DNA of 64,000 bases from Sulfitobacter sp. SK012 (GTDB lineage Bacteria > Pseudomonadota > Alphaproteobacteria > Rhodobacterales > Rhodobacteraceae): NCBI RefSeq assembly GCF_003352085.1, contig NZ_CP025804.1, forward strand, positions 2,418,001 through 2,482,000. The letters are read 5' to 3'. The notes under the pieces are model-generated. The model was not told the origin of the DNA. It did no database searches and saw only the letters and a program-made list of their open reading frames with translations. Every line of letters begins with the position of its first letter. The first letter of the stretch is position 1. Positions 6,792-27,822 of this stretch are shown piece after piece. Made by a program: the position numbers and the translations under genes.

Positions 6792-6817
6792 GGCACTTCG
6801 CCCCGAAAGCCGTTTTT

Positions 6818-9301: not shown

Positions 9302-9323
9302 AGGTCTACCGGGAGGAAACGAA

Positions 9324-10472: not shown

Positions 10473-10478
10473 AGACAA

Positions 10479-10516
10479 GCGGGCACCCGACGTGGTGCCC
10501 GCGGTTTTTCTTTTTT
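10479..10516 (+). terminator. Rho-independent terminator/attenuator after the binding protein
   Basis: GCGGGCACC, a six-base loop, then GGTGCCCGC (10479-10502) form a nine-pair GC-rich stem followed by GGTTTTTCTTTTTT. It begins six bases after the binding-protein stop codon. It probably stops most transcripts there, so that the periplasmic protein is made in excess over the membrane subunits and enzymes. Confidence 0.88.
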
Positions 10517-10580
10517 GACAGAACTCCATCGTTTGCGCTCTTGAGCGAGGCGTTGGGCTGTCCAGATTTTGGGAAAAGAT

Positions 10581-11093: not shown

Positions 11094-11104
11094 GGAGATA
11101 CGAC

Positions 11105-12433
11105 ATGCTTTGGAATACAGTTAATCAAACGGTCGAACTCGGTTGGGATTTCTACCTGCCGGTCCTCCTTTTTGTCGCAATGATCGGGCTTGCTGTCCCG
11201 GTCTGGGCAGCCATTGGATCCACTGCGATCTTGATGCTATGGATGTCTGGCGACCTGCCGCTAAGCCTTGTGGGTGAAAGCCTGTTCTCGGGCATTGATG
11301 CCTTCGCGCTGACGGCCGTGCCGCTCTTTATCTTAACGGGCGACGTCCTGGTGCGCACCGGACTTAGTCGAAAATTCCTCGATGTGGCTGAGGCGCTGAC
11401 CAACTTTGCCAAAGGTGGTTTTGGGTCTGCCACGGTTTTGGTTTGCGGAATGTTTGCGGCCATATCGGGGTCTGACGCGGCGGGTGCTGCTGCTGTGGGT
11501 CGCATGACAATCGCGCGGTTGGTTGAGGCTGGTTATCCCCGTCCATATGCCTGCGCACTTGTGGCGGCTGGGGCCTGTACTGGTATCCTGATCCCACCAT
11601 CAATTGCCTATATCATCATCGGCCTTGTGCTGGGTATATCTGCATCCACGCTGTTCCTAGCAGCCTTGATCCCCGGTCTTGCAATCTTGTTTGCGATCCT
11701 GATCACCAACCTGATCGTTAACCGCATTCATGGGTATGAAGGTGGCGGCAACATGAGCTTTAGCGAATGGTCCGGAAATCTTGGCCGCAGCCTGAAGTCT
11801 GGCTGGTATGCGTTTATCGTGCCTGGCATCATCTTCTACGGTATCTTCTCAGGCCGTCTGACCCCAACAGAAGCCGGTGCGACAGCGGTTGTTGTTACCA
11901 TCTTGATGGGTTTCATCATGGGCACGCTAAAGCTGGCTGATTTCCCTGCCATGCTTCTAAGTTCTGCCAAAGTGAACGGTGTTATCTTGCCGATTATCGC
12001 CTTTTCGGCCCCCTTGGCCGAAGCACTTGCAATCATGGGCGTACCGCAAGGTTTTGTGACATCGATCACGAGCATTACGAATGAGCCATGGCTGTTGATC
12101 CTGCTGATGATCGGTATTTTGATTGCAGCAGGCTGCGTGATGGAAACGACACCCAACATCGTTATCCTTGCGCCGATCCTCATGCCGCTGGCCGACAACA
12201 TTGGTATGAATGAAATTCAGTTCTGCATCATGATGATCACGGCACTTGGCGTGGGGTTCATTACACCACCTCTTGGGTTGAATTTGTTCGTCGTATCGGG
12301 GATTACGGGGGAGTCTATTTTAAAGATCGCTGCCCGAGCTGTCCCCTTTGTGTTGTGCATGTTCGTTGTGGTTCTCTTCATCGCTTATGTACCTGCAATT
12401 TCAACAACTTTCCTGCCCGATAGCTATAAATAG
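11105..12433 (+). CDS. TRAP transporter large membrane subunit (DctM-type)
   Basis: A 442-residue permease with about 12 membrane segments. AAGGAG lies upstream of ATG 11105. DctM signatures include the VGESLFSGIDAFALTAVPLFILTGDVL region, GSDAAGAAAVGRM, and the GILIPPSIAYIIIG and GFITPPLGLNLFVVSG segments typical of the ion-transporter superfamily. It is the transport channel of the TRAP system and lies 11 bases after the small subunit gene. Confidence 0.94.
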   Translation: MLWNTVNQTVELGWDFYLPVLLFVAMIGLAVPVWAAIGSTAILMLWMSGDLPLSLVGESLFSGIDAFALTAVPLFILTGDVLVRTGLSRKFLDVAEALTNFAKGGFGSATVLVCGMFAAISGSDAAGAAAVGRMTIARLVEAGYPRPYACALVAAGACTGILIPPSIAYIIIGLVLGISASTLFLAALIPGLAILFAILITNLIVNRIHGYEGGGNMSFSEWSGNLGRSLKSGWYAFIVPGIIFYGIFSGRLTPTEAGATAVVVTILMGFIMGTLKLADFPAMLLSSAKVNGVILPIIAFSAPLAEALAIMGVPQGFVTSITSITNEPWLLILLMIGILIAAGCVMETTPNIVILAPILMPLADNIGMNEIQFCIMMITALGVGFITPPLGLNLFVVSGITGESILKIAARAVPFVLCMFVVVLFIAYVPAISTTFLPDSYK

Positions 12434-12444
12434 GATCCCGACTA

Positions 12445-13752
12445 ATGACACGTGAGTATCTAAAAAACGCAACGCTGACTGCTGAGTCAGATGCATCCGA
12501 AACCCATGAGACGGTCAAAAAGATCCTGGCCGATATCGAAGCTGGGGGTGACGCCAAGGCGCTGGAATATGCAAAGAAGTTTGACCGTTACGAAGGCAAT
12601 GTAATGCTGACGCCCGAGGAAATTGAAGCCGCTTGCGCTTTGGTTCCCGAAAAGCTCAAGCAGGACATTCAGTTCGCCCAAGGTAACGTACAGCGCTTTG
12701 CCGAAGCACAAAAAGCCACTGTGTCAGATGTCGAGATTGAGATCGTGCCCGGTATGATCGCTGGCCAAAAAGCGATCCCCGTGGATGCGGCGGGCTGCTA
12801 TGTGCCCGGTGGGCGCTACAGTCACATTGCCTCGGCGATCATGACGGTAACCACGGCTAAGGTTGCTGGATGCCATCATATCACGGCATGTTCTCCGCCG
12901 CGTCCCGATGTTGGTGTGAACCCGGCGATTGTTTATGCGGCGCATATCTCTGGCGCAGACAAGATCATGGCTTTGGGCGGTGTTCAGGGCGTTGCTGCGA
13001 TGACATTTGGCCTCTTTGGACTGCCAAAGGCGAACATCCTTGTTGGTCCGGGTAATCAATTTGTGGCCGAAGCCAAGCGGATCTTGTTTGGCCGCGTTGG
13101 CATCGACATGATTGCGGGTCCAACTGACAGCTTGATCCTCGCCGACAAGAATGCAGACGCGCATATTGTGGCAACGGATTTGGTTTCGCAGGCTGAGCAT
13201 GGCTATAACTCTCCTGTTTGGCTGGTCACAGACGACCGTGCGCTGGCGGAAAAGGTGATGGAAATAGTACCGGGTTTGATCGACGATCTGCCGGATGTGA
13301 ACCGTGAAAACGCCTTCGCCGCGTGGCGCGATTATGCCGAAGTTATCTTGTGCAAAGATCGTGAAGACATGGCCGCTTGCTCAGATGAATATGCACCAGA
13401 GCATTTGACAGTTCAGGCCGGTGATTTGGATTGGTGGTTGGAGCGTTTGACTTGCTACGGCTCACTGTTCTTGGGTGAAGAAACCACCGTATCTTACGGC
13501 GACAAAGCGTCTGGTACCAATCACGTGCTGCCAACATCTGGCGCCGCCAGCTATACCGGTGGCCTGAGTGTGCATAAGTACATGAAGATCGTGACGTGGC
13601 AGCGTTCCACCCGCGATGGCTCCAAGTCGGTAGCTGAAGCAACGGCACGTATTTCACGTCTAGAAGGAATGGAAGGTCACGCGCGCGCTGCGGATGTGCG
13701 TTTGGCAAAATACTTCCCCGGTGAAAACTTTGACTTGTCCGCCAATGGCTAA
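12445..13752 (+). CDS. hpsN: HpsN-like sulfopropanediol (DHPS) dehydrogenase, histidinol-dehydrogenase fold
   Basis: A 435-residue zinc-dependent, NAD-linked dehydrogenase of the HisD superfamily. HisD motifs are present: AGCYVPGGRY, NPAIVYAAHISGAD, GPGNQFVAEAKR, SQAEHGYNSP with the catalytic region, and DEYAPEHL. In this genomic setting (TRAP transporter, ComDE and no other his genes) it fits HpsN, which oxidises (R)-DHPS in two steps to sulfolactate. True histidine-biosynthesis HisD is normally a separate gene in a his locus. The assignment is by fold plus context; the substrate is inferred. The last eight bases overlap the next gene. Confidence 0.82.
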   Translation: MTREYLKNATLTAESDASETHETVKKILADIEAGGDAKALEYAKKFDRYEGNVMLTPEEIEAACALVPEKLKQDIQFAQGNVQRFAEAQKATVSDVEIEIVPGMIAGQKAIPVDAAGCYVPGGRYSHIASAIMTVTTAKVAGCHHITACSPPRPDVGVNPAIVYAAHISGADKIMALGGVQGVAAMTFGLFGLPKANILVGPGNQFVAEAKRILFGRVGIDMIAGPTDSLILADKNADAHIVATDLVSQAEHGYNSPVWLVTDDRALAEKVMEIVPGLIDDLPDVNRENAFAAWRDYAEVILCKDREDMAACSDEYAPEHLTVQAGDLDWWLERLTCYGSLFLGEETTVSYGDKASGTNHVLPTSGAASYTGGLSVHKYMKIVTWQRSTRDGSKSVAEATARISRLEGMEGHARAADVRLAKYFPGENFDLSANG

Positions 13753-14506
13753 TGCGGCGTCACTCTTTGATCTGACAGGGCGCGTTGCGTGTGTAACCGG
13801 GGCCAGTTCTGGCCTTGGCCGCCGCGCGGCCGTTGCTTTGGCCGCGGCGGGTGCTCAAGTTGTTGGCGTTGCGCGCCGTGCAGATGCATTGCAAGAATTG
13901 CGCGATGAGATTGGCGACGCCTGCGCTGTTGTCGCCGCTGACGTCGCGGACAGATCAGGCATCCCTGCCCTGCGCGATGCGGTCACCGCCCCGTTTGGTG
14001 CCCCTGACATCATCGTCCATGCCGCGGGTATCAACACCCGCGAGGCTGCGGATGATGTCACAGAAAACGGCTGGGACCAGACCATTGCGCTCAACCTGTC
14101 GGCACCGTTTTTCCTGACACAGGCTTTGGTCCCTGCAATGCGCGCCAAAGGCTGGGGACGGATCGTAAATTTTGCGTCCCTGCAGACAACTCGGGCGTTT
14201 CCTGGCGGCATCGCATACGGAGCAACCAAGGCCGGGATCGCGCAATTAACACGCGCAATGGCCGAAAGCTGGTCGGCTGATGGGATTACAGCCAACGCCA
14301 TCGGCCCTGGGTTTTTCCCGACCGAACTGACACAGGCGGTATTTTCTGACCCTGACCGCGCCGCGCGCAATGCCGAACAGACCTGTGCCGGCCGCAACGG
14401 ACGGCTTGAAGATATGGACGGACCCTTGGTCTTTTTATGCTCAGATGCTTCGTCCTTTGTCACAGGTCAGGTTTTGATGGTTGATGGGGGGTACACAGCG
14501 AAATGA
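13745..14506 (+). CDS. Short-chain dehydrogenase/reductase in the sulfonate operon
   Basis: A 253-residue NAD(P)-dependent SDR with the Rossmann motif TGASSGLGRR near the N-terminus, HAAG after the third strand, and the catalytic Ser (NFASLQT), Tyr (AYGATK, YxxxK) set. ATG 13745 lies within the end of the HpsN-like gene. DHPS operons in other bacteria carry extra dehydrogenases that interconvert the two DHPS enantiomers through the ketone; this SDR and the next gene are candidates for that. That assignment is inferred from position, not from specific residues. Confidence 0.82.
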   Translation: MANAASLFDLTGRVACVTGASSGLGRRAAVALAAAGAQVVGVARRADALQELRDEIGDACAVVAADVADRSGIPALRDAVTAPFGAPDIIVHAAGINTREAADDVTENGWDQTIALNLSAPFFLTQALVPAMRAKGWGRIVNFASLQTTRAFPGGIAYGATKAGIAQLTRAMAESWSADGITANAIGPGFFPTELTQAVFSDPDRAARNAEQTCAGRNGRLEDMDGPLVFLCSDASSFVTGQVLMVDGGYTAK

Positions 14507-15483
14507 AAGCTCTTGTTTATGACGGCGTTGAAACGCTTGGTTTCCGCGATGTCCCTGATCCACAGCCCCGAGACGGCGAGCACCTTATCCGCGTCGAAGC
14601 CGTTGGAATTTGCGGGTCGGACATGCATGCCTATCTGGGCCATGATGTGCGTCGCCCTGCCCCGCTGATCCTTGGACATGAGGCTGCTGGTGTTATCGTT
14701 GGTGGCCCGCGCGATGGGGCACGCGTCACGGTCAACCCGCTGGTGACCTGCGGAACATGCGCTGCGTGCACATCGGGGCGCGAAAACCTATGCCCCACGC
14801 GGCAGATTATATCGATGCAGCCGCGCGAGGGGGCTTTTGCCCAGTTCGTGACGATGCCGGATCAAAACCTTGTTGAGGTGCCAGCCGCAGTGTCTTTGGA
14901 CAAGGCCGCACTTGCTGAACCGCTTGCTGTAAGTTGGCATACGGTCCGCTTGGGCCTGCAAGCGCTGCACCCAAGCGTTGAGCCGCGTGCGCTGGTCATT
15001 GGCGGCGGTGCTATCGGTCTGGCCGCGGCTCTTGCCTTGCGTGCAATGGGCACACAAGACGTCACCATTGTAGAACCAAACGCCGCGCGGCGGGCATTTT
15101 TGCAAGACACCTGTGACCAACAGGTCGTCTCTGAGGCGGAAGGCCTGTTCCCGATTGTGATTGATGCGGTTGGCTACTCTGCCACGCGGGCAACTGCCTC
15201 CGCCCTCGTGCAAAGCGGCGGGGTCATGGCCCATGTTGGTTTGGGCGAGGATACAGGCGGTCTGGATATCCGGCGCATGACCTTGCAAGAAGTGACGTTT
15301 ATCGGCACCTACACCTACACAGCCCAAGACTTCCGCGATACGGCGCAGGCCATATTTGACGGACGGCTTGGTCCGCTGAATTGGACACAGACACGTAGCC
15401 TCTCCGAAGGCGGGTCTGCTTTTGCGGATTTGCGGCGCGGCGCTGTCTCTGAACCAAAAATCATACTGACCCCTTGGCCTTAG
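14503..15483 (+). CDS. Zinc-dependent alcohol dehydrogenase (MDR family)
   Basis: A 326-residue medium-chain dehydrogenase. Catalytic zinc ligands are recognisable in GICGSDMHAYLGH and GHEAAGV. The structural zinc loop keeps four cysteines (CGTCAACTSGRENLC). A Rossmann motif (VIGGGAIGLAAALAL) binds the cofactor. It overlaps the SDR by four bases (ATGA), so the two are probably coupled. A plausible job is oxidation of a hydroxyl on DHPS or its enantiomer; no substrate can be read directly. Confidence 0.85.
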   Translation: MKALVYDGVETLGFRDVPDPQPRDGEHLIRVEAVGICGSDMHAYLGHDVRRPAPLILGHEAAGVIVGGPRDGARVTVNPLVTCGTCAACTSGRENLCPTRQIISMQPREGAFAQFVTMPDQNLVEVPAAVSLDKAALAEPLAVSWHTVRLGLQALHPSVEPRALVIGGGAIGLAAALALRAMGTQDVTIVEPNAARRAFLQDTCDQQVVSEAEGLFPIVIDAVGYSATRATASALVQSGGVMAHVGLGEDTGGLDIRRMTLQEVTFIGTYTYTAQDFRDTAQAIFDGRLGPLNWTQTRSLSEGGSAFADLRRGAVSEPKIILTPWP

Positions 15484-15498
15484 ATTAGGACCCTACCA

Positions 15499-15912
15499 AT
15501 GTATAAAAAAATCGTTGTTACCATGGCTCTGGATCACGGAATTTCGCCCGAAACGCTGGCGATTGCCGAGGCGTTGCGCGCAGACGGCGGCGAAATCATC
15601 GGATTGCACGTCTATGAGACCCCTCAGGGTTCAGTCAGCGCCTATTTGGATGCCGACGTCGTGCAGGCGGGTTACGACAAAGCCCAAGCAGATTTGCAGG
15701 CAAAGGTTGACGGCACGGCGAATGTGACAGCCGTTCTGATCAAGGGCCACTCTGCGCGCGGCATCATCGATTATGCTGATGCCAACGATGTCGATTGCAT
15801 CGTGATCGGTTCGCACAAACCAGGGCGCGGGCGTTTCTTGCTCGGCTCTACAGCGGCGCGCGTTGTGCGCCACGCCTCTTGCGCGGTGCATGTGCGCCGC
15901 AGCATCGATTAA
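15499..15912 (+). CDS. Universal stress protein (UspA family)
   Basis: A 137-residue cytosolic protein with the Usp fold: a hydrophobic strand at the start (YKKIVVTMALD), then the ATP-binding signature at the C-terminal side (VIGSHKPGRGRFLLGSTAARVVRHASCAVHV), matching G-x2-G-x9-GS. Usp genes are often found inside transporter operons of the TRAP type. It sits between the dehydrogenases and ComDE, 15 bases after the previous gene. Confidence 0.9.
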   Translation: MYKKIVVTMALDHGISPETLAIAEALRADGGEIIGLHVYETPQGSVSAYLDADVVQAGYDKAQADLQAKVDGTANVTAVLIKGHSARGIIDYADANDVDCIVIGSHKPGRGRFLLGSTAARVVRHASCAVHVRRSID

Positions 15913-15948
15913 TCTTACAACTAGCACCTCCGGAAAGGCCCAACTCCC

Positions 15949-16455
15949 ATGAATATCGACAAGAAGATCGCAGATGATCTGATTGCGAATGACGTCTCAT
16001 TTGTGACAACCGTGCCCTGCAAACAGCTGGCCGGCGTCATCGAAGAAGTCGAAGCGCGCAAAGAGATTTTCCACATTCCATCCAACAACGAAAACGAAGG
16101 TATGGGCCTGTGCGCTGGTGCGTTCATGGGTGGCAAGCGCCCGATGATCATCATGCAAAACACCGCCATCGGTGTCACGATCAACACGCTGGCGACGTTG
16201 ACCCAGTTCTACCGCATGCCGTTGCCGATGCTGATTTCGTATCGCGGTGAGCTGCGCGAGCCTGTGGCCTGTCAGGTTGAAATGGCGGTTCACACCAAGG
16301 CTCTCTTGGCGCAGCTGAACATCCCAACGTACCATTTCCATTGGCAAAAAGACGTCGAGGAATTCGATAACATCTTGAAATACACTTTCATGTGCAACAA
16401 GCCGGTCGCGATCCTGACCGATGCCAACTTCTGGGGAGGCTACGGAGACCAATGA
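15949..16455 (+). CDS. comD: Sulfopyruvate decarboxylase, alpha subunit
   Basis: A 168-residue protein matching the N-terminal (Pyr) half of TPP decarboxylases, split as in ComD. SNNENEGMGLCAGAFMGG contains the catalytic Glu of the pyrimidine-binding domain. With ComE it decarboxylates 3-sulfopyruvate to sulfoacetaldehyde. An alternative would be phosphonopyruvate decarboxylase, but the split subunits and the sulfonate context favour ComDE. The stop overlaps comE by four bases. Confidence 0.85.
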   Translation: MNIDKKIADDLIANDVSFVTTVPCKQLAGVIEEVEARKEIFHIPSNNENEGMGLCAGAFMGGKRPMIIMQNTAIGVTINTLATLTQFYRMPLPMLISYRGELREPVACQVEMAVHTKALLAQLNIPTYHFHWQKDVEEFDNILKYTFMCNKPVAILTDANFWGGYGDQ

Positions 16456-17006
16456 TCCGTTCAGAAATCCTGCGCGACATCGCGCCAATCATCCGTGACC
16501 ACCTGGTCGTTTGTAACATCGGTCTGCCAAGCCAAGAGCTGCATATGATCGACGACCAACCCACCAACTTTTACATGTTGGGCACCATGGGTCTGTCATC
16601 CTCCATCGGCCTGGGCCTGGCATTGGCACAAGACAAAACCGTCATCTCTATTGATGGCGACGGATCTGTCCTGACCAACCTTGGCACGCTGCCTACAATC
16701 GCCAACAACGTGGCAGACAACTATGTTCTGTTGATCATCGATAACGGCTCTTATGGCTCAACCGGCGATCAACCGACCTATGCGGGCATGAAAACCTCGC
16801 TGACGGCAGTTGCAAAGGCGTGTGGCTGCGAGAATGTGATCGAGGTTCAAGACAAAGACCTTGGCCCCGTTCTGCAATCGGCCATCGACGGCAAGAAGAT
16901 GACCGTGATCGTATGTAAATGCGACAGCGGCAATATCAAGCTGCCGGTGATCACCATGGATCCTGTGGTCATTCGTGATCGGTTCATGACCTCCGTCGCG
17001 GGGTGA
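16452..17006 (+). CDS. comE: Sulfopyruvate decarboxylase, beta subunit
   Basis: A 184-residue TPP-binding (PP) half-domain. The diphosphate/Mg motif GDGSVLTNLGTL followed by LLIIDNGSYGSTG (GDG-x~27-N) is intact, and the length matches ComE. The start ATG 16452 overlaps comD (ATGA), ensuring equal subunit synthesis. It provides the cofactor-anchoring half of the sulfopyruvate decarboxylase. The product sulfoacetaldehyde would need Xsc (sulfoacetaldehyde acetyltransferase), not found in this window. Confidence 0.86.
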   Translation: MIRSEILRDIAPIIRDHLVVCNIGLPSQELHMIDDQPTNFYMLGTMGLSSSIGLGLALAQDKTVISIDGDGSVLTNLGTLPTIANNVADNYVLLIIDNGSYGSTGDQPTYAGMKTSLTAVAKACGCENVIEVQDKDLGPVLQSAIDGKKMTVIVCKCDSGNIKLPVITMDPVVIRDRFMTSVAG

Positions 17007-18106
17007 GTGCCAGCGCCATCCATTCTGCTGAGGACGCGCGGCGGCTTGCCCGCCGCCGCCTGCCATGGATGGTGTTTGACTATATAGACGGGTCTGCAGG
17101 AGCTGAAACCGGTGCCGCGCGCAACCGTGCCGCATTGGATGCCATCACCCTGCAGCCCCGCATTTTGCGCGATGTGAGCCAACGTTCAATGGCGACAACG
17201 CTGTTTGGTGCCCCTGCCGAGCGACCGTTCGGTATCGCACCTATGGGTATGTGTAACCTGTCTGCGCCCGGCGCTGATCTAATGTTGGCGCGGCTGGCTG
17301 CAAAATATAAAATACCCCACGGCGTCTCCACCGTCGCCTCGACACCGCTTGAAGAAATCCTTGAAGTTGCTGACGGCCATGCGTGGTTTCAGATCTACTT
17401 CACAGGCGATGGTGTTGGTACTTTCAAACTGATCGAGCGTGCACGCCACGCAGGCTACGAGACACTTGTTCTGACGGTCGATGTTCCAGAAGTTGGCCGC
17501 CGACCGCGCGAGCTGCGCCATGGCTTCAAAATGCCATTTCGGATCGGCCCGCGGCAGTTTATCGATTTTGCTTTGCATCCGCGTTGGTCTTTGACCTCGC
17601 TTTTCCACGGCAAACCGCAGATGGCGAATTTTGAGATGCCCGGCTACGCGTTTGACCGAACAGAAAGCCGCGCGCGAGCCGATTGGAGCACGCTTGAGCA
17701 GATGCGTGCCGCTTGGCCCGGCAAGCTGGTCGTTAAGGGTGTGCTTGACCCCCAAGATGCTGCAATGCTGAAGGACAAGGGCGTCGATGCCATTCAGGTA
17801 TCCAGTCACGGTGCGCGGCAACTTGAAAGTGCGCCATCCCCTGCCCTTATGCTGCCCGAGATCCGAAAAACGGTTGGACCCGAATTCCCATTGTTTTTCG
17901 ACAGCGGTCTGCGCTCTGGCGAAGACGTGCTCAAGGTGATGTCTCAGGGCGCTGATTTCGCGTTCTTTGGGCGCATTTTGCAATATGCGATCGCTGCAGG
18001 TGGCGAAGATGGCCTGCATGCAATGTGGAACGTGCTGAGTGAAGAGCTAAGCATCGCAATGGCTCAGTCTGGGCTCAGCGTATTGCCACAACACCGGTCA
18101 GACTAA
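17003..18106 (+). CDS. FMN-dependent alpha-hydroxy acid dehydrogenase (LldD-like), putative sulfolactate dehydrogenase
   Basis: A 367-residue TIM-barrel flavoenzyme of the LldD/glycolate oxidase family. It starts at a GTG overlapping the comE stop. Conserved parts: FDYIDGSAG near residue 30, FGIAPMGM, WFQIYF, LVLTVDVPEVGRR, LVVKGVLDPQDA with the flavin Lys, the catalytic His in SSHGARQL, and FFDSGLRSGEDVLK. The active-site loop deviates from the usual SNHGGRQLDG. Since no GlcD-like SlcD is present, I infer that it oxidises sulfolactate to sulfopyruvate, feeding ComDE; ordinary lactate is the alternative. Confidence 0.82.
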   Translation: MSASAIHSAEDARRLARRRLPWMVFDYIDGSAGAETGAARNRAALDAITLQPRILRDVSQRSMATTLFGAPAERPFGIAPMGMCNLSAPGADLMLARLAAKYKIPHGVSTVASTPLEEILEVADGHAWFQIYFTGDGVGTFKLIERARHAGYETLVLTVDVPEVGRRPRELRHGFKMPFRIGPRQFIDFALHPRWSLTSLFHGKPQMANFEMPGYAFDRTESRARADWSTLEQMRAAWPGKLVVKGVLDPQDAAMLKDKGVDAIQVSSHGARQLESAPSPALMLPEIRKTVGPEFPLFFDSGLRSGEDVLKVMSQGADFAFFGRILQYAIAAGGEDGLHAMWNVLSEELSIAMAQSGLSVLPQHRSD

Positions 18107-20484: not shown

Positions 20485-22464
20485 TTAGACCAACTCGGCG
20501 TCGGTCATGAGTTCTACCAATGCAGGGCCTTTAACCGCGAGCGCCTTTTCGATTGCGTCGTCTATGTCCTGCGTATTGGTGACCTTTTGCCCATGCCCAC
20601 CACAAATTTTTGCAAAGGCTGCGAAAGACGGATTATGCAGATTGGTTTCCCAAACTGGCCATTCGCCCGAGCGCTGTTCTTTGGATATTTTTCCAAGCTC
20701 GCCGTTGTGCAAAAGGATATGCGTTATATCCATGCCGTATTTTACCGCGGTGGTGAAATCCATCGGGTACTGACCAAATCCACCATCGCCAGAGATTGAG
20801 ATGACTTTGCGACCGCGCAGTGCTTGGATATCTTGCGTTGCGGCCCACGCGCCAATGCCTGCAGGGAAGCCGTAGCCGATGGACCCCAAATACCCTGACA
20901 TCAAAACCCGCTGGTTCCCCTTGGTCTCTAGGTAGCGCCCGAAAGAATAGGTGTTGTTACCGACGTCCACTGCAAAAATCGCGTCATCTGGGGCGAGCCG
21001 CCCAAGGGCCTCAAAGATCGCAAAGGAATGGATGCCATTGCCATGTTCCTCGGCCAGGCGCCGTTGTTTTTCATCGCGCCAAATCTGCCAGCGCTCTGCC
21101 AATTCGCCATGTTGATCCACCGCATCTGCGTTGCGCGTTATCGCGCCCGCCGCCGCTTCGCAGAACGCGCCAATTTCACCCCAGACGGGGACTTTGACCG
21201 GGTGGAACTTGCCCAATTGCATCCGATCATAATCGACCTGAATGATGTTTTCTTTTAACGCAATGCCGGTGTGGTTCGAGAAGCTTGCGCCGAAGGCAAC
21301 TAGAACATCGGCCTCATTCATGAACCAACTTGCAATGGGCGTGCCGGAGCGTCCAAGCACCCCTGCGCCCAGTGGATGACTGTCTGGAACCAGTCCCTTT
21401 GCTTTGAAGGTGGTCACCACCGGGGCACCAATTTTTTCAGCCAAAGCGATAATCTGATCGCGGGCGGCATAGGCCCCGTGACCTACGACAATCATCGGGC
21501 GTTTTGCCCCATTCAACAGCGCGACCGCGGCGTCAATATCGTCTTGGGCTGGTCTTACCCGTGTGCCGCCCATCCGGCCTGCTGGTGTCCCAGCAGGTTT
21601 TGCTGAGGGGACGGTTTGAACGTCGTCAGGAAAGATAAGATGGGCAACGTTTTGCTCAACAATGGCATTCTTGCAGGCCAGCGACATAAGCTCTGCATGG
21701 TTGGAGCTATTCAGAACCGTTTGCGAGAATGTCGTTACCGCTTGGAAGGCAGACCCCAAATTGATGTCTTGAAAAGCGCCAGGGCCAAAAACCTGCGTTT
21801 GCACTTGGCCGGTCAATGCCAGCACAGGCGCGCGGTCAACTTTAGCGTCCCACATACCTGTCAAAAGATTGGTCGCACCGGGACCTGCGATGGTAAGACA
21901 AGCCGCGGGTCGGCCGGTGAGCTTGCCATAAGCAGAGGCTGCAAAGGCTGCGACGCCTTCGTGCCGAATGCCGTAGTATTTCAGCTTTTTATCAATCACC
22001 GCGCGGCGGATCGCATCGGACAGACCAAGGTTGGAGTGTCCCACCATGCCGAACACCGACTGCACACCCCAATTGGTCATCGTTTCAACCATCACATCTG
22101 TGACGGTGCGCTCATGAGGCGGCTCGGCTTCAAGGCCTACGAAAATCTCGCCATCTCGGATGTCGATCGGGTACATATCTTGGCCGGAATCTTCGTGGCC
22201 ACCGGGGGGTTTGCCTGTCAGCGGGTCAAAATCCCAGCCATGCCATGGGCAGCGGATCCAGCTCTTGTCATCGGTGCCCTTTTCAATCGACCCTTCGCCA
22301 AGCGGCCCTTTTTGATGGGGGCAATGGTTGTTCATTGCAGCCCATTGGCCATCGAAATGTACAAGGCATATGGATGTGGTGCGTGCAGTAACGGTTTTGA
22401 TGCGCCCCTCAGGCAGATCATCGATCTGTCCGACAGAAATCCAATCAAGGTTCTCAGTGGTCAT
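20485..22464 (-). CDS. Rieske [2Fe-2S] - thiamine-diphosphate enzyme fusion
   Basis: A 659-residue fusion. Residues ~1-105 are a Rieske domain with Cys48-x-His50 and Cys72-x2-His75 (HCPHQKGPLGEG, RCPWHGWDFD). Residues ~115-655 are a full acetolactate-synthase/pyruvate-oxidase-type TPP enzyme: catalytic Glu in YGIRHEGVAAFAASAYGK, GPGATNLLTG, a central domain, and the Mg/TPP motif GDGGFGQYPMDF ending in LLHNG. The start at 22464 is chosen because AGGAGG lies nine bases upstream; an ATG at 22473 directly abuts that motif. It is last in the Rieske operon, overlapping the small membrane gene by 11 bases. It probably performs an electron-yielding decarboxylation coupled to the fused iron-sulfur centre; the substrate is unknown. 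Confidence 0.87.
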   Translation of the reverse strand: MTTENLDWISVGQIDDLPEGRIKTVTARTTSICLVHFDGQWAAMNNHCPHQKGPLGEGSIEKGTDDKSWIRCPWHGWDFDPLTGKPPGGHEDSGQDMYPIDIRDGEIFVGLEAEPPHERTVTDVMVETMTNWGVQSVFGMVGHSNLGLSDAIRRAVIDKKLKYYGIRHEGVAAFAASAYGKLTGRPAACLTIAGPGATNLLTGMWDAKVDRAPVLALTGQVQTQVFGPGAFQDINLGSAFQAVTTFSQTVLNSSNHAELMSLACKNAIVEQNVAHLIFPDDVQTVPSAKPAGTPAGRMGGTRVRPAQDDIDAAVALLNGAKRPMIVVGHGAYAARDQIIALAEKIGAPVVTTFKAKGLVPDSHPLGAGVLGRSGTPIASWFMNEADVLVAFGASFSNHTGIALKENIIQVDYDRMQLGKFHPVKVPVWGEIGAFCEAAAGAITRNADAVDQHGELAERWQIWRDEKQRRLAEEHGNGIHSFAIFEALGRLAPDDAIFAVDVGNNTYSFGRYLETKGNQRVLMSGYLGSIGYGFPAGIGAWAATQDIQALRGRKVISISGDGGFGQYPMDFTTAVKYGMDITHILLHNGELGKISKEQRSGEWPVWETNLHNPSFAAFAKICGGHGQKVTNTQDIDDAIEKALAVKGPALVELMTDAELV

Positions 22465-22744
22465 TTGCGTCATCCTCCTGGGAAGTGGTTTTAGCCAAAA
22501 TGAAGTCGATGAATCTTTGTAGGTAGGTCAGGATCAAGAAAATACCGATCGCCCAAATCAACAACTCGAACGGGGCAAATGGCGTGCCGCGCAGCCAACG
22601 ACCCAATAGGCCACCGCCCGGGCGCAACGCTTCCCAACCAAACAATCCGCTGCGCGGCCAGAGGTCCAAAAACCAAAAGCGTGACAGGTACAACATGACG
22701 ATGCCGACGACAAAAACGAGTACAAGAAGTAGGATGCGTTTCAT
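22454..22744 (-). CDS. Small two-helix membrane protein of the Rieske operon
   Basis: A 96-residue protein with an N-terminal hydrophobic helix (RILLLVLVFVVGIVMLYL), a Trp/Gly/Arg-rich linker (FWFLDLWPRSGLFGWEALRPGGG), and a second hydrophobic segment (LLIWAIGIFLILTYLQRF). No cofactor motif is visible and I do not recognise the family. Start and stop overlap neighbours (ATGA with the upstream gene), so it is co-translated with the Rieske proteins and may be a membrane subunit or assembly factor. Confidence 0.72.
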   Translation of the reverse strand: MKRILLLVLVFVVGIVMLYLSRFWFLDLWPRSGLFGWEALRPGGGLLGRWLRGTPFAPFELLIWAIGIFLILTYLQRFIDFILAKTTSQEDDANDH

Positions 22745-23505
22745 TGGTCTGTCAGCTCCAATGTTGTATCATCCATCCGCAGAACAAGGATATCGCCGCG
22801 ACGCTCCAGGTCGCCCTCAAGCGTGATAAATTGACCTACATAATCATAGGACATGGTCGGCAGGCGTGTGCCATCAGGGCCAGTGATTACCATGAAGTCA
22901 GACCCGTCAATCGGCTGAGTTGAAACGAACACGGGTGGGATATCTCCCAACAGGCACAGATTTGCGCAGGCTTTGTGGGCCAAGCCGCGCCCTGGCCGCA
23001 TGGCGCCATTCAGGCATTTTCCATCGCAGATTTCCCCCGCGACTTTCCAACGGCCCAACTGCTCGGTTTCCATTACAGGTGCTATGCCTTCAGCCGCCTT
23101 AAGGCCCCGGCCACCGCCGCGCAGTTGCATCATGTCAATCGTCCCGCGTTGCAGGATGACCCCAGACACAGTTGCCAGTTTTCCGTCTAATCCCATTGCC
23201 CGCATATCAACGCCAGATTTTCCGGCGCTTGTCAGCATCAGGGTTTTGCCCGGTTTGATCAGGTCATTGCCTTCCGTAACCCGCAGCAGCGGATAAGGGG
23301 TGAGCTCAATCACGCCCGTGACAGTTTGACGGCCATAATCGAACCGGAAGCCAGACGCAGGCGGTGCGTCTTGGGTGCTGCCGATCAATGCGCCGCTTAC
23401 CGCAAAGATCGCAATGACCAAGACACTCGCGACCATCAAGAACCGGCGCAAACCTCCGGGCACAGCAAGGTAGCCCACGAAAAATGGCGTGTTTTTATCG
23501 CTCAT
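22741..23505 (-). CDS. Membrane-anchored protein with a C-x3-C / H-x2-C-x3-C site
   Basis: A 254-residue protein with one N-terminal membrane helix (residues ~22-42), the rest probably periplasmic. Two beta-rich halves flank a conserved-looking motif: GEICDGKCLNG (Cys160, Cys164) and then GLAHKACANLCLLGDIPPVF (His177, Cys180, Cys184). The four cysteines and one histidine could bind a metal or form disulfides. No named family is recognised. It sits between the ferric-reductase-Rieske gene and the small membrane gene with four-base overlaps on both sides, implying a shared complex or pathway. Confidence 0.75.
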   Translation of the reverse strand: MSDKNTPFFVGYLAVPGGLRRFLMVASVLVIAIFAVSGALIGSTQDAPPASGFRFDYGRQTVTGVIELTPYPLLRVTEGNDLIKPGKTLMLTSAGKSGVDMRAMGLDGKLATVSGVILQRGTIDMMQLRGGGRGLKAAEGIAPVMETEQLGRWKVAGEICDGKCLNGAMRPGRGLAHKACANLCLLGDIPPVFVSTQPIDGSDFMVITGPDGTRLPTMSYDYVGQFITLEGDLERRGDILVLRMDDTTLELTDQ

Positions 23506-24554
23506 GCTGCGGCCTCGATTTTAACGGGTTCTACGAAAGTCCCCGGTGGGTTTGCGTCCCGGTGTACTTGCACAACAGCACCACTCAGCCGGATGTTATA
23601 CGTCGGGACCATTTCAGTGAAAGGTGCCGGTGAACGGCCGTTGGTCACATCATATTGAAAACCATGCCACGGGCAGGTCACAAGACAGTCAAGGACCCTG
23701 CCCTCACCCAAAGGCCCATTTTGATGGGCACAGGCATTGGAGATCGCGCTGAGTGTTCCGGCTTGGCGAAAGACAGCAACACGTTCGCCATTTGCCAAAA
23801 TCTTGATTTTGGCAAAGCCGTCGCGCATTTCGGCCACACTGCAAACATCGATCCAGCCGTCCACATCGACGCCCAACCTATCGCCATGGCGACGTTCATA
23901 GATGGCCGCATAGGCATGCAGGCCCGCAACCGCCAAGGCACCCCCGGTGAAGATCACTGTAAAAGTGTGGTTTTGCTGATCTTGCAGGACCCCAAGCGTG
24001 ACATGGGCAACTACAGAGACATAAGCGAAATAGATCAGGCTGTGGATGTGCTTCCAAACCGGTGGGGTCAGGAACTTCATCCAGAAATCGTGGCTGGTTG
24101 TGGCTAAAATGGCGAGGCACAGAAGTGAGAAAATACCAAAGAATTCAAACGGAAAGCCCGCCAATTGACCATAACTGGTGTTGGCAAACAGGAGCGCTTC
24201 GTACCGGTCAGAACTGGAAAAAGCAAAATACCAGTTCATGATGTAACTGGCATGCGTGATCGCCACAAAGAGTGTCATCACCCCAAAATGCCTGCGGTTA
24301 TACAGCAACGGTAAGAAACGGCGATCAATGCGGGCAAGTGGGCCGATGCAAAGGATCACGGTCAACATCACAAAGGCACAGGCCCCAAAGGCGCGCGCAT
24401 TGTGGATTTGCGGATTGAGGGGAAACTCGTGGCTCAGCAGTTCAGGGCTGATGAACAAAAATAGCCACAAGAACACGATCACACCAGCAAGCATGACCGC
24501 ATCATAAAGCCACTTGTTACGGTTCCATTGGACGGGGATATATTTAACGCTCAT
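23502..24554 (-). CDS. Ferric-reductase-type membrane domain fused to a Rieske domain
   Basis: A 350-residue protein. Residues ~15-215 hold about six membrane helices of the ferric reductase-like (YedZ/MsrQ, NOX) superfamily, with candidate haem histidines at 101, 171 and 184 (AITHASYI, KHIHSLIYF, VVAHVTLG). Residues ~230-335 are a Rieske domain: Cys275-x-His277 (ACAHQNGPLGEG) and Cys294-x2-His297 (TCPWHGFQYD). Such a fusion would pass electrons between a membrane b-haem and a [2Fe-2S] centre in place of the usual FAD/NAD module. The start ATG 24554 overlaps the previous stop (ATGA); the open frame upstream is antisense noise. Confidence 0.85.
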   Translation of the reverse strand: MSVKYIPVQWNRNKWLYDAVMLAGVIVFLWLFLFISPELLSHEFPLNPQIHNARAFGACAFVMLTVILCIGPLARIDRRFLPLLYNRRHFGVMTLFVAITHASYIMNWYFAFSSSDRYEALLFANTSYGQLAGFPFEFFGIFSLLCLAILATTSHDFWMKFLTPPVWKHIHSLIYFAYVSVVAHVTLGVLQDQQNHTFTVIFTGGALAVAGLHAYAAIYERRHGDRLGVDVDGWIDVCSVAEMRDGFAKIKILANGERVAVFRQAGTLSAISNACAHQNGPLGEGRVLDCLVTCPWHGFQYDVTNGRSPAPFTEMVPTYNIRLSGAVVQVHRDANPPGTFVEPVKIEAAA

Positions 24555-24928
24555 TGGCTGACCTCCGCCGCTGGAGACAGCTGAACTGGTGCTATGTCCA
24601 CGGGCCAAATTTGCCGGGCTGACAGGCCCATGACCAAGATTGCAACAATCGCGATCGGCATCGCCAGTGCGAACCATTGATGGTTGTGTCTGCGGGGGCG
24701 GTATTTGACCGGCCAGGTGTCTTTACCTGAACCAAGCACGTACCAGCGCCACACAACAGCCGGCCAGATCAAAACAATCCCGGGGACCAGCAAGGGCCGA
24801 AAGACATAGGCACCGCGCGCGTCTTCGTCCAACCGGTCCATGCCAAAAATTAGAAAGGGGATTGCAACAAGCACACCCGCGCCGGCCCATAACTTGACAA
24901 CAAGCACGATCAGTTCGGCTTGGTTCAT
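24551..24928 (-). CDS. Three-helix membrane protein of the Rieske operon
   Basis: A 125-residue protein with three hydrophobic segments (LIVLVVKLWAGAGVLVAIPFLIF, VPGIVLIWPAVVWRWYVLG, FALAMPIAIVAILVMGL) and a His/Arg-rich loop (RPRRHNHQW). The family is not recognised. Both ends overlap neighbours by four bases, so its product is made together with the two Rieske fusions on either side. It may be a membrane subunit for the ferric-reductase-like partner. Confidence 0.74.
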   Translation of the reverse strand: MNQAELIVLVVKLWAGAGVLVAIPFLIFGMDRLDEDARGAYVFRPLLVPGIVLIWPAVVWRWYVLGSGKDTWPVKYRPRRHNHQWFALAMPIAIVAILVMGLSARQIWPVDIAPVQLSPAAEVSQ

Positions 24929-26535
24929 GCCACGCCACCAAATGTAACGCCGGAGATATCAGCCATATCTTTTTTCCACGTCGTCAGATCATCATGGTTG
25001 AATTTGGACAAATGATCATGGCCACAAGCACGTGCCATGACCTGCATCAACTCTACTGAAGCCCCAAAGAAATTTGCCAGCTGTTGCGCTGATTTTTCTG
25101 CGATCAATCGATTGACCAAATGGGGTTTCTGAGTTGCGATACCAACTGGGCAATTGTTGGTATGACAGGCCCGCATCGCCAGACAGCCAATCGCCTGCAT
25201 GGCCGAATTTGACACCGCAATCGCGTCCGCCCCAAGGGCCATGGCCTTGATGAAGTCCGCGGGTTTACGCAAACCACCGGTGATCACAAGGCTGATGTCA
25301 TCGCGCCCCAGTTTGTCCAAATGCCTACGAGCACGGGCCAAAGCTGGAATTGTCGGAACCGAGATATTGTCGCGGAAAATGATCGGTGCGGCGCCTGTGC
25401 CACCCCCGCGCCCATCCAAAATGACATAATCAACGCCAACCGCGAGAGCCGCATCAATATCCTTTTCGATGTGCTGGGCTGACAGCTTGTATCCAATGGG
25501 AATACCGCCTGTACGGGTGCGAACTTCATCCGCGAACTCTTTGATCTGGCTCACTTCTGTCCATTCAGGAAACCGCGATGGCGAAATGGCGGCCGTGCCT
25601 TCTTCAAGACCACGAACGCCTGCAATCTTACCTTTTACCTTGTTGCCCGGCAAATGGCCGCCCGTGCCTGTTTTAGCACCTTGGCCACCCTTGAAATGGA
25701 ACGCTTGAACCTTGTCGAGCTTGTCCCAGCTAAAGCCGAACCGACCCGAGGCCAATTCGTAGAAGTAACGGGAGTTCTCGGATTGCTCCTCTGGCAGCAT
25801 GCCACCTTCACCAGAGCAGATACCTGTCCCGGCCAGTTCTGCGCCACGGGCAAGCGCCACCTTGGCAGATTCAGACAGCGCCCCAAAACTCATGTCCGAC
25901 ACAAATAATGGGATCTCTAGCCGCAGGGGTTTCTTTGCATTTGGCCCAATGATGATTTCAGTGCCAACTTCAGCGTTATCCAACAGCGGCGGCGTGGCGA
26001 GCTGTGCGGTTAACAGTTGAATGTCGTCCCAATCTGGCAATTCGACCCGAGACACACCCATTGAATCGACGATGCCGTGATGCCCCGTTTTGGATAGACC
26101 GTTTTTGGCGTAGTTTTGGATCATGCCGTTGTAAGGTTCTTCGGCAGTCCCGTGACTTGGATCAGCATAAAGGCCCAGATATGCGTCGCGGTTATAGGGC
26201 TGCGGGTTGTCGAAACCCCAGCTGTTAATCTCGTCGGCGTCGACACACACATCGTCTCCGTCCAGCCAAGATGTAAACTTTGGCAGTTTCTCATCGTTGG
26301 CATAGGCGGACACACCACTATCAAGCCGGTAGTCCCAGTTGTGCACACCGCAAATCAGATCGTTGCCCCGCACATGGCCATCCGACATCAACGCCCCGCG
26401 GTGTAAACAGCGACCGTAGAAAACCGATACCTCCTCGTCAAAACGGACAACCACCAAGTCGACCTCGCCCACGATGGCATATTCAGGATCGCGGTCAGCA
26501 AGTGCACTAAGTTTAAAAATGGCCGTTTTGTTCAT
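24925..26535 (-). CDS. Rieske - glutamate synthase FMN/[3Fe-4S] domain fusion
   Basis: A 536-residue fusion. Residues ~1-105 form a Rieske domain with Cys43-x-His45 and Cys62-x2-His65 (RCLHRGALMS, ICGVHNWDY). Residues ~170-520 match the central FMN-binding (synthase) domain of glutamate synthase: PLFVSDMSFGALS, KGGQGAKTGTGGHLPG, ISPSRFPEWTEVSQIKEF, LDGRGGGTGAAP, and the [3Fe-4S] cysteines 451, 457 and 462 (C-x5-C-x4-C). No glutaminase (GATase) domain is present; the Rieske domain takes its place. It could catalyse a flavin-dependent amination or oxidation with electrons from the Rieske chain. ATG 26535 is preferred to an upstream GTG. Confidence 0.87.
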   Translation of the reverse strand: MNKTAIFKLSALADRDPEYAIVGEVDLVVVRFDEEVSVFYGRCLHRGALMSDGHVRGNDLICGVHNWDYRLDSGVSAYANDEKLPKFTSWLDGDDVCVDADEINSWGFDNPQPYNRDAYLGLYADPSHGTAEEPYNGMIQNYAKNGLSKTGHHGIVDSMGVSRVELPDWDDIQLLTAQLATPPLLDNAEVGTEIIIGPNAKKPLRLEIPLFVSDMSFGALSESAKVALARGAELAGTGICSGEGGMLPEEQSENSRYFYELASGRFGFSWDKLDKVQAFHFKGGQGAKTGTGGHLPGNKVKGKIAGVRGLEEGTAAISPSRFPEWTEVSQIKEFADEVRTRTGGIPIGYKLSAQHIEKDIDAALAVGVDYVILDGRGGGTGAAPIIFRDNISVPTIPALARARRHLDKLGRDDISLVITGGLRKPADFIKAMALGADAIAVSNSAMQAIGCLAMRACHTNNCPVGIATQKPHLVNRLIAEKSAQQLANFFGASVELMQVMARACGHDHLSKFNHDDLTTWKKDMADISGVTFGGVA

Positions 26536-26574
26536 GGTCGTCCCCACTGACTATTTAACCGAGTTTCAATGTCT

Positions 26575-27822
26575 TTAGCTATTCGCCGCGGCATGTCTCT
26601 TTCGGTCATCTATTGGCTGCGTTTCAGGGCACTCCCCCATGACAGCAATCTTTCGACCGTACCACCGTGCCCCAGGTGCCGCCGAAATACCATGTAAGAC
26701 TGCGCTGATCCAAACTGTGTTCACAGCAATATGAAGAACTTGCTCGCCTAGTTCATGCGGAATGATCTCGACGACCAGCAAGGCAAATAGCGCCGTGGCG
26801 AGCCCTCTTGGGCCAAACCAGCCAAAGAAAAGTCGGGTCAAAGGGGCTGTGTCGGTGCCGAGCAATGACAGCCAAATCGCGAGCGGACGCACAATCAGCA
26901 AGCTGACCATGATCAAGCCAAACATTGACCATGTAAGATGCATCATCGCTTGTGGCACAAGCGCTGCGCCAAGAAGCAAAAAGGCGGACCACGCGAGTAT
27001 CTGTCCTTCTCCTTCGACAAACTCGTAGATGAATTTGCAGCGGCTTTGGGCAATTCCCCCAAAAACCAGCCCCGCAACAAAGGCTGCGATAAAGCCGTTA
27101 CCGTCAATCTGGGTCGCCAAAAGATATGATGCGCCGGCCAAAGCAAGTGCCCCGATCCCCTCAAAGGTTTCAGAGGTCAGCTCGTGGTCCTTGGCGTAGA
27201 TCATGACCTGACCGCCAATCCAGCCAATTGCGACCCCGACCAAGGGGCCAAGGATCAACTGCTTGGCCACAAACACCAGCCAAGCACCGTTTGTCTGGGT
27301 CATTTCCCCCAAAGTAAGGCTCGCTAGGAATAAGATAACCGGAAGGGCCAGACCGTCGTTCAACCCACTTTCAACCACAAGCGCGCGACGCGGGCGGATC
27401 GGAACTTCAGGGTTGGACACAACCGCTTGCCCTAGCGCGGCATCAGTTGGGGCCATGATTGCCGCCATTAAAATGACAGCTACAAACGGCCAATCAGTCA
27501 AGAACACAAAGCCCGCGAGTGTGCCAAGGACGATCGCTAGTGGAAGGCCAAAACCCAGCATGCGGGCGGGCCACGTTCGCCGGAGCCTTAATGCGCGCAA
27601 ATCGGTCTGCGCAGCGTCCAAAAAGAGCAGTATCACAAGTGCTATTTCAGCGACCGGGTGCAATACAGATTCAGCGTTTTCATGATCGACCAAGCCGGTG
27701 ACGGACATCAGCAATCCGAGGGACAAAAACACCATAGGCGCTGTGACAATTGTTGATGCAAGTCGTTTGCCAAGCATGCAAAACGCCATTGTGACTGCGC
27801 AAACGATTAGTAAACCTAGCAC
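26575..27822 (-). CDS. Cation:proton antiporter (CPA/NhaP-like)
   Basis: A 415-residue membrane protein with about 12-13 helices. The ion-binding region of CPA antiporters is visible (LMAAIMAPTDAALGQAVV with the Asp in PTDAA, and VESGLNDGLALPVILFL). Start codon GTG. It lies 39 bases upstream of the Rieske-GltS gene on the same strand with no obvious terminator between, so it may be the first gene of that operon and keep ion balance for it, or be an independent gene. Confidence 0.85.
   Translation of the reverse strand: MLGLLIVCAVTMAFCMLGKRLASTIVTAPMVFLSLGLLMSVTGLVDHENAESVLHPVAEIALVILLFLDAAQTDLRALRLRRTWPARMLGFGLPLAIVLGTLAGFVFLTDWPFVAVILMAAIMAPTDAALGQAVVSNPEVPIRPRRALVVESGLNDGLALPVILFLASLTLGEMTQTNGAWLVFVAKQLILGPLVGVAIGWIGGQVMIYAKDHELTSETFEGIGALALAGASYLLATQIDGNGFIAAFVAGLVFGGIAQSRCKFIYEFVEGEGQILAWSAFLLLGAALVPQAMMHLTWSMFGLIMVSLLIVRPLAIWLSLLGTDTAPLTRLFFGWFGPRGLATALFALLVVEIIPHELGEQVLHIAVNTVWISAVLHGISAAPGARWYGRKIAVMGECPETQPIDDRKRHAAANS

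Follow-up and report, generated by a model that had tools for sequence, protein, structure and literature searches.

Why would one bacterial operon encode three different enzymes that each carry a Rieske domain of their own? The question is raised by a stretch of 64,000 nucleotides (the window) of Sulfitobacter sp. SK012 (NCBI RefSeq contig NZ_CP025804.1, positions 2,418,001 to 2,482,000), whose genome comprises 5.18 Mb in four contigs. Six overlapping genes on the minus strand of the window, at 26535–20485, encode three membrane proteins together with fusions of a Rieske domain to a thiamine pyrophosphate (TPP) enzyme, to a ferric-reductase-like haem protein and to the FMN/[3Fe-4S] body of glutamate synthase (GltS). 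As judged from sequence comparisons, this operon is part of a conserved, modular and co-inherited Rieske-linked redox system, and its closest relatives bear Rhodobacteraceae and Roseobacter-type names. The genes of the run are the following:

26575..27822, minus strand: NhaP/CPA1-like cation:proton antiporter, 415 aa (PF00999), first gene of the co-directional run
24925..26535, minus strand: GltS-Rieske, 536 aa from an ATG start (PF00355 and PF01645)
24551..24928, minus strand: mem125, small membrane protein with three hydrophobic stretches, first of a four-gene membrane module
23502..24554, minus strand: FerR-Rieske, 350 aa (PF01794 and a C-terminal PF00355)
22741..23505, minus strand: p254, predicted N-terminal membrane helix and two OB-like barrels in the structure model, Cys/His motif
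22454..22744, minus strand: mem96, small membrane protein with two hydrophobic stretches
20485..22464, minus strand: TPP-Rieske, 659 aa (PF00355, PF02776, PF00205 and PF02775)

A check to the base agreed exactly with the original prediction, made from the sequence alone, of six minus-strand genes that meet in ATGA at four junctions and in an 11-base overlap at the last one, between mem96 and TPP-Rieske (ATGACCACTGA). The prediction was right about these six genes but overlooked the antiporter gene at 27822–26575, a co-directional seventh gene that ends 39 bases before the start of GltS-Rieske. The starts used here, at 26535 (GltS-Rieske), 24554 (FerR-Rieske) and 22464 (TPP-Rieske), are the conserved ones; longer open reading frames (ORFs) begin upstream of them, and the alternatives in the ORF list are a GTG at 26547 for GltS-Rieske and an unconserved start at 24677 for FerR-Rieske. 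The Rieske ligands, C-x-H and C-x2-H, are complete in all three fusions: CLH/CGVH at residues 43–65 of GltS-Rieske, CAH/CPWH at residues 275–297 of FerR-Rieske and CPH/CPWH at residues 48–75 of TPP-Rieske. This pattern is kept in 93 of 95 TPP, 65 of 74 GltS and all 52 FerR cluster rows, and the rows without it are fragments, paralogues that lack the fusion, or versions with CDGSH. Pfam matches, all above the gathering scores, pair each Rieske domain with a different partner (Rieske with TPP_enzyme_N/M/C, Ferric_reduct with Rieske, and Rieske with Glu_synthase), as had been predicted. The prediction that the remaining three products are membrane proteins, one of them with a Cys/His cluster, is likewise borne out, because hydropathy analysis found stretches of membrane-helix length in mem125, p254 and mem96, and p254 carries the motif. 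Scanning for promoters and terminators gave one promoter-like site against 5.2 in shuffled sequences, and 11 terminator-like sites against 9.3.

Far from occurring together only rarely, the three fusions coincide in genomes. Among 196 genomes of the order, TPP-Rieske is present in 18, GltS-Rieske in 23, FerR-Rieske in 22 and p254 in 22, and 16 genomes hold all three fusions; the GltS-Rieske count comprises hand-read rows starting at or before query residue 8, with a broken copy in genome G418 excluded. By pairs, TPP-Rieske and GltS-Rieske share 17 genomes, TPP-Rieske and FerR-Rieske 16, and GltS-Rieske and FerR-Rieske 18 (Fisher p of 9e-17, 1e-18 and 2e-17, respectively, uncorrected for kinship). 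The eighteenth TPP-Rieske genome, G387, contains, immediately ahead of TPP-Rieske, the GltS version that carries CDGSH. Across 289 genomes of the class, TPP-Rieske was found in 13, FerR-Rieske in 15 and both in seven (p 3e-7, kinship ignored); eleven TPP-Rieske genomes fall beyond the family of the window, and the same five of them contain both GltS-Rieske and FerR-Rieske. The TPP fusion is rare overall, since only five of 249 genomes in a phylum sample contained it at E 1e-130, four of which belong to the window's family.

This co-occurrence does not depend on adjacency. Genome G123 has each of the three fusions on a contig of its own, two of them far from the contig ends, while TPP-Rieske is 0.66 Mb from the others in G397, FerR-Rieske is 0.79 Mb from the others in G344, and the fusions are 18–66 kb apart in G009 and G143; those of G227 are also on three contigs, in an assembly too fragmented to judge distance. 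Because the fusions are co-inherited whether adjacent or apart, they are most simply read as sharing a redox role, and the three very probably constitute one functionally linked redox system. The shared, membrane-anchored redox pathway that had been proposed for the operon thus stands as far as co-inheritance and one membrane-bound part are concerned, but not as a single obligate pathway, because its parts are modular.

Two modules can be delimited by sequence comparison. Module A comprises the antiporter, the GltS-type FMN/[3Fe-4S] enzyme and a TPP enzyme of the pyruvate-oxidase type; both enzymes have a [2Fe-2S] domain at the N terminus, a Rieske domain or, in some relatives of GltS, CDGSH. 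Module B comprises mem125, a STEAP/YedZ-like haem protein with its Rieske domain, p254 and mem96. We examined the neighbourhoods of TPP-Rieske relatives in the best 80 (the closer ones) of 206 stretches of the genome collection that encode them, 57 of which are well covered, with at least 6 kb upstream and at least 4.5 kb downstream. A GltS fusion is near TPP-Rieske in 61 of the 80 loci; 59 of these align from the start of the Rieske domain, one is cut by a contig end (L008) and one is a CDGSH version (L080), and copies in L060 (35%) and L075 (contig-cut) fell below the threshold and are not among the 61. FerR-Rieske is found in 44 loci and p254 in just these, mem125 in 44, relatives of the antiporter in 36 and mem96 in 28. 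Restricting the count to the well-covered loci gives 46 with GltS, 37 with FerR-Rieske and p254, 30 with both GltS and FerR-Rieske, 16 with GltS and no FerR-Rieske in the stretch, and 27 with the antiporter.

The modules also differ in their arrangement. In 40 of the 61 loci the GltS stop is an estimated −10 to 56 bases from the TPP-Rieske start, and in 20 of the 61 module B lies between the two genes, as it does in the window. Module B is upstream in L015–L017, L019 and L127 and downstream in ten Roseibium-type loci, giving three main orders round module A. In a FerR tree of 57 rows, which includes three of the nine FerR-bearing loci among 11 additional stretches that passed a length and motif filter, the downstream set forms one side of a branch (100/99), while the upstream set requires two changes and the inserted set ten. 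One ancient association may have been rearranged later.

Clustering of the ORFs from the 80 loci retrieved a single further frequent cluster, of ABC-transporter ATPases by reading, at scattered offsets in 21 loci. The next one was DUF5996, in 11 loci, accompanied by a membrane protein about 230 aa long. The latter, found after TPP-Rieske or DUF5996 in L046, L048, L049, L068, L075, L084 and others, did not match Pfam and shows, by reading, a filter motif of the TrkH kind and an end resembling RCK, again hinting at potassium. Adjoining genes for PhyH, LacI and an FMN dehydrogenase were considered as parts of the system and rejected, being unmatched in the 80 loci save for one FMN-dehydrogenase match of 32% (L030). 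As a separate observation, an extracytoplasmic function (ECF)-type sigma factor is located near the antiporter, GltS and TPP genes in nine of the 80 loci (L044, L046, L048, L049, L057, L067, L081, L083 and L084), in eight of them with a zinc-finger anti-sigma-like gene, both genes being named by sequence reading.

The TPP part of TPP-Rieske resembles pyruvate oxidase in sequence. The closest solved structures are those of E. coli PoxB (3eya/3ey9, E 1e-66), acetolactate synthase I and Lactobacillus pyruvate oxidase (1y9d, E 7.5e-55). Glu596 does not vary among 31 rows; the residue aligned with it is Glu in both pyruvate oxidases and Gln in acetolactate synthase I. The alignment to PoxB stops at residue 527 of 572, after which the window protein has five more residues and PoxB about 45; we take this tail of PoxB to be its membrane-activation or membrane-binding segment. 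The NCBIfam models for pyruvate oxidase scored TPP-Rieske well below their cut-offs (394.6 against 742 bits for NF006377, and 310.9 against 792 bits for NF006591).

GltS-Rieske matches PF01645 with an E of 1.9e-88 and keeps the [3Fe-4S] cysteines, C-x5-C-x4-C, at residue 451. Pfam found no glutamine amidotransferase domain, matching only Rieske, Glu_synthase and FMN_dh in 540 residues. Compared with ferredoxin-dependent GltS (numbered as in the printed chain), it has identical residues at Lys966, Lys972, Arg992 and Glu903, the last of them within a very weak alignment block; presumably, these four residues and Gln978 have roles in the substrate pocket of the ferredoxin-dependent enzyme. We also observed that the gene looks broken, in separate pieces, in G418 and that the match in G439 contains one TAG. 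GltS-Rieske occurs without TPP-Rieske in L106, L108 and L109, near a pair that looks like MsrP/MsrQ when read from the sequences.

The N-terminal domains of the soluble enzymes are exchangeable. On GltS bodies 68–70% identical over residues 131–540, a tandem CDGSH replaces the Rieske domain: 11 GltS rows at this identity start at residue 131–134, and the four N-termini examined (L105, L110, L111 and L112) all contained the tandem, two of them with Pfam confirmation; the copy in L080 looks like the same gene as that in L105. A CDGSH domain also precedes the Rieske domain in five distant TPP-Rieske proteins (53–61% identity), and three of the four that were scanned have in addition Fer4_19, a divergent 4Fe-4S domain. 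That unrelated Fe-S domains have been swapped or added at one and the same end of two enzymes is more in keeping with electron plugs than with a role in binding or catalysis. A sensor role may also be considered, although we judge it likely that the Rieske domains act as electron conduits. Bacterial CDGSH domains in combination with Fer4_19, Glu_synthase, ferritin-like and Rieske_2 domains have been catalogued previously (PMC5859297).

FerR-Rieske reaches 43.8 bits with PF01794 (cut-off 28), and R87, H101, H171 and H184 are invariant in the 27 sequences, out of 53, that were aligned. In YedZ and STEAP1 an Arg replaces the first canonical His and three His are kept (PMC3591440). The same Arg/His spacing indicates that FerR-Rieske is probably of the YedZ/STEAP type, with one membrane haem. 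Its AlphaFold2 model (mean pLDDT 79) retrieved with Foldseek Rieske ferredoxins at E 1e-6 and STEAP1/2/4 at E 1.2e-4 to 6e-4 (STEAP1, 1.2e-4), with a TM-score by target of 0.58 against 6y9b. STEAP proteins move electrons from the cytosol outward, and the STEAP-like fold of the model suggests that electrons would cross the membrane towards p254. The quinone hub that had been proposed for this protein stays a conjecture. We rejected membership in the MsrPQ system, because the MsrQ score was 38.6 bits against a cut-off of 130 and the partner gene is not MsrP; none of the seven operon genes matched MsrP in Pfam or NCBIfam.

The protein p254 did not match any family in Pfam or NCBIfam, and a fold search with its model (mean pLDDT 83; one N-terminal helix and two OB-like barrels) gave generic OB-like barrel matches only. 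It keeps C-x3-C-x12-H-x2-C-x3-C in all 52 gene-called relatives, 31 of which were used in the alignment, and it is probably periplasmic, the side being one that we infer. It is always paired with FerR-Rieske, in the 44 loci described above and in the very same 22 of the 196 genomes. Even at 18 loci where module B lacks the soluble fusions alongside, p254 follows FerR-Rieske in 17; none was found in L162, where a 375-aa protein with a Rieske-like start (6257–7384) is located where p254 would be. Two loci containing module B without module A, L100 and L103, share an unidentified block of neighbours.

The antiporter has a clear PF00999 match (E 1.2e-32; 113.6 bits, cut-off 26.2) and met no NCBIfam equivalog cut-off, the best being a potassium/proton antiporter at 139 against 355 bits.

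The system also extends to plasmids and to archaea. In a collection of 72,556 plasmid records, full-length TPP-Rieske was among the matches listed for four haloarchaeal plasmids (57–58%) and one Mycobacteroides abscessus plasmid (52%). Three of the four haloarchaeal plasmids also contain GltS-Rieske (60–61%), at 16.7 kb, ca. 4 kb and ca. 1.4 kb from TPP-Rieske; in Halorarius a sodium:proton antiporter follows TPP-Rieske, and on the M. abscessus plasmid a CPA2-like antiporter is about 3 kb away. FerR-Rieske was found in five Rhizobium records only and had no match in the haloarchaeal plasmid records at E 1e-15. The spread of the system over alphaproteobacterial families, and of the TPP fusion to haloarchaea and a mycobacterial plasmid, makes it probable that the genes were handed on together as a useful unit. 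Neighbours on the haloarchaeal plasmids (L128, L129, L130, L131 and L136) include merA, DsrE, rhodanese, a TauE/SafE exporter, dihydrolipoyl dehydrogenase and DUF3179, in a mix that varies by record; these surroundings are a possible sulfur or metal stress island.

What reaction could this system perform? We propose that the Rieske domains would serve as matching plugs through which the three enzymes exchange electrons. TPP-Rieske would decarboxylate a 2-oxoacid oxidatively, with pyruvate as the first candidate, and deliver the electrons to its own Rieske centre. From there they would pass to GltS-Rieske, which would aminate a 2-oxoacid reductively in the manner of glutamate synthase, using free ammonia or an amine. 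Any excess would leave by way of FerR-Rieske, crossing one haem in the membrane to reach the Cys/His site of p254, and module B would then act as an overflow or alternative outlet. The antiporter would keep cations or protons in balance, for instance as a counter-ion for glutamate; this role is a guess and the weakest step of the scheme. We favour the flow from TPP-Rieske to GltS-Rieske because they are the tightest pair (adjacent in 40 of 61 loci and co-occurring in 17 of 18 genomes) and are often adjacent without module B. A 2-oxoacid oxidase that supplies electrons both to an enzyme of the glutamate-synthase type and to a haem conduit across the membrane is the best overall explanation that we can offer, plausible if just short of probable, with substrates and direction that we infer. 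The specific direction, from TPP-Rieske to GltS-Rieske with the surplus going to FerR-Rieske and p254, is possible and put forward tentatively.

Several observations weigh against this scheme. The genome encodes an ordinary full-length large GltB elsewhere, so that glutamate supply alone is a weak rationale for GltS-Rieske, and its alignment with ferredoxin-GltS places a His at Gln978; because of this replacement, its substrates may differ from those of ordinary GltS. The parts are also separable. Well-covered loci include seven with FerR-Rieske (module B) and TPP-Rieske without GltS in the stretch, one with the antiporter alone and three with none of the six other parts. In the genomes of the order, TPP-Rieske is missing from six of the 23 with GltS-Rieske (one of them, G439, at a contig end), both other fusions from four of the 22 with FerR-Rieske, and FerR-Rieske from two of the 18 with TPP-Rieske. 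Six of the 11 distant TPP-Rieske genomes contain neither of the other fusions, one of them having a GltS match (37%) that does not cover the Rieske region, and TPP-Rieske can therefore work in the absence of these two. Moreover, module B adjoins a non-Rieske TPP enzyme, a CoA-transferase and a tetratricopeptide repeat (TPR) protein at four of the 18 loci without the soluble fusions (L133–L135, from three Rhizobium plasmid records, and L166, from G009, where the CoA-transferase and the TPR protein were named by sequence reading), which would represent a second TPP partnership of the same membrane unit. Finally, the stress-like neighbours found in other lineages, such as the ECF sigma factor and merA, fit a stress role too.

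The closest rival to the favoured electron flow reverses the part of GltS-Rieske: TPP-Rieske would oxidise a 2-oxoacid, GltS-Rieske would oxidise glutamate or another amino acid, and both would unload through their Rieske domains onto FerR-Rieske, and thence to p254 and an external acceptor, with two inputs and one membrane exit. The presence of FerR-Rieske in 16 of the 18 TPP-Rieske genomes of the order agrees with it, as do the STEAP-like fold, for which outward electron movement is general background, the position of module B between gltS and tpp in the window, and the non-Rieske TPP enzyme beside module B in Rhizobium and G009. It is, however, rather unlikely, given the 16 well-covered loci with GltS and no FerR-Rieske in the stretch, a genome (G316) in which both soluble enzymes are present and FerR-Rieske had no match at E 1e-20, and the haloarchaeal plasmid records, in which the search for FerR-Rieske was negative. 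Alternatively, the Rieske and CDGSH clusters could sense oxidant, nitric oxide, iron or pH and toggle the enzymes that carry them, so that the operon would answer stress by changing the flow of carbon and nitrogen and the balance of ions. Both clusters have histidine ligands and are pH-sensitive, CDGSH can substitute for Rieske, and the antiporter within the unit, the nine sigma-factor loci (eight with the anti-sigma-like protein) and the merA, DsrE, rhodanese and TauE/SafE genes of haloarchaea would suit such a switch. We nevertheless regard it as unlikely: the sigma/anti-sigma pair was found in no locus with module B among the 80, and a conduit would fit better both the divergent 4Fe-4S domain added on TPP relatives and the Rieske domain on a membrane haem protein, where relatives in the family bear electron-transfer domains (PMC3591440).

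Two further possibilities we rejected. TPP-Rieske might belong to a neighbouring sulfonate cluster at 9.2–18.1 kb, performing a step like that of sulfoacetaldehyde acetyltransferase (Xsc), with the whole operon as an accessory to sulfonate breakdown. This cluster (9210–18106) is a probable dihydroxypropanesulfonate-type set, with a TRAP transporter, a HisD-like dehydrogenase, which we take to be of the HpsN type, a short-chain dehydrogenase/reductase, a zinc alcohol dehydrogenase, sulfopyruvate decarboxylase alpha and beta (15949–17006) and an LldD-like enzyme; the alpha subunit scores just under its cut-off (146.4 against 147.95 bits) and the beta subunit over it (239.7 against 221.5). In spite of these decarboxylase genes and of a sub-threshold Xsc score, the link is most improbable, because TPP-Rieske reaches 223.7 bits with the Xsc model TIGR03457, whose cut-off is 676.4, the genome encodes a true Xsc elsewhere (917.8 bits), and the neighbours tested from the sulfonate side (ComD, LacI and PhyH) were unmatched in the 80 loci of relatives. 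Chance could also have brought together unrelated genes with a common Rieske ferredoxin domain, an idea that could draw on the abundance of such domains and on the separation of the modules in some genomes. It is scarcely credible against overlapping gene ends, recurrence in 80 related loci, co-occurrence without adjacency in distant families, TPP and GltS fusions together in archaea, and FerR-Rieske and p254 in exactly the same 22 genomes.

Returning to the preferred coupling of TPP-Rieske to GltS-Rieske, a broader proposal can be made, which we hold as doubtful: a new redox metabolism common to bacteria and haloarchaea, in which exchangeable [2Fe-2S] plugs, Rieske or CDGSH, would hand the electrons that a TPP enzyme draws from a 2-oxoacid straight to an FMN/[3Fe-4S] enzyme for reductive amination, with neither NAD(P)H nor free ferredoxin in between. 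In bacteria the overflow would leave through a STEAP-like transmembrane haem protein and a novel Cys/His protein of the periplasm. A described pathway that already held all three fusions would speak against novelty; our literature search, beyond the reach of which were most subscription papers, recognised no paper joining them. Within the literature searched, the Rieske-linked set is thus without a description. Its parts are new fusions within known families, with which they can be compared one by one.

TPP-Rieske shares with PoxB and Lactobacillus pyruvate oxidase the three TPP domains (N, M and C) and the Glu at the same position. Unlike PoxB, it has an N-terminal Rieske domain, does not have the tail beyond residue 527 and reaches no pyruvate oxidase cut-off. 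TPP enzymes are known to pass electrons to FAD and quinone, to 4Fe-4S ferredoxins or to lipoamide, and a Rieske domain fused to one of them would be a new electron exit for this group of enzymes. FerR-Rieske, for its part, resembles the FRD superfamily (YedZ/MsrQ and STEAP) in its haem membrane domain, its R87/H101/H171/H184 pattern, its STEAP-like predicted fold and its Rieske extension, Rieske being among the extension domains that act as electron transfer agents in that superfamily (Zhang et al. 2013, PMC3591440). It differs from the described members in being paired with p254, in 44 of 44 loci, and tied to two more Rieske enzymes. This pairing links p254, an unmatched protein with an invariant Cys/His site, to a putative STEAP-like electron conduit.

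Ordinary GltB and ferredoxin-GltS have in common with GltS-Rieske the FMN/[3Fe-4S] domain, the three cysteines and most of the aligned pocket residues, but the window protein, of about 540 residues, is without the amidotransferase domain, has a Rieske domain as the likely entry for electrons and shows the Gln to His change in the pocket. A nearer likeness is to the proteins that join a CDGSH tandem to the glutamate synthase FMN domain, on record since 2011 as type 5 CISD (Lin et al. 2011, PMC3174974), for which the portion of that paper available to us states no function. They share the idea of the architecture and, in close relatives, a catalytic body 68–70% identical to that of GltS-Rieske; the window protein, in contrast, has a Rieske domain in place of the two CDGSH motifs, which appear only in its relatives. 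This exchange of Rieske for CDGSH on a very similar body, in an operon with a putative TPP oxidase, would give type 5 CISD a concrete partner.

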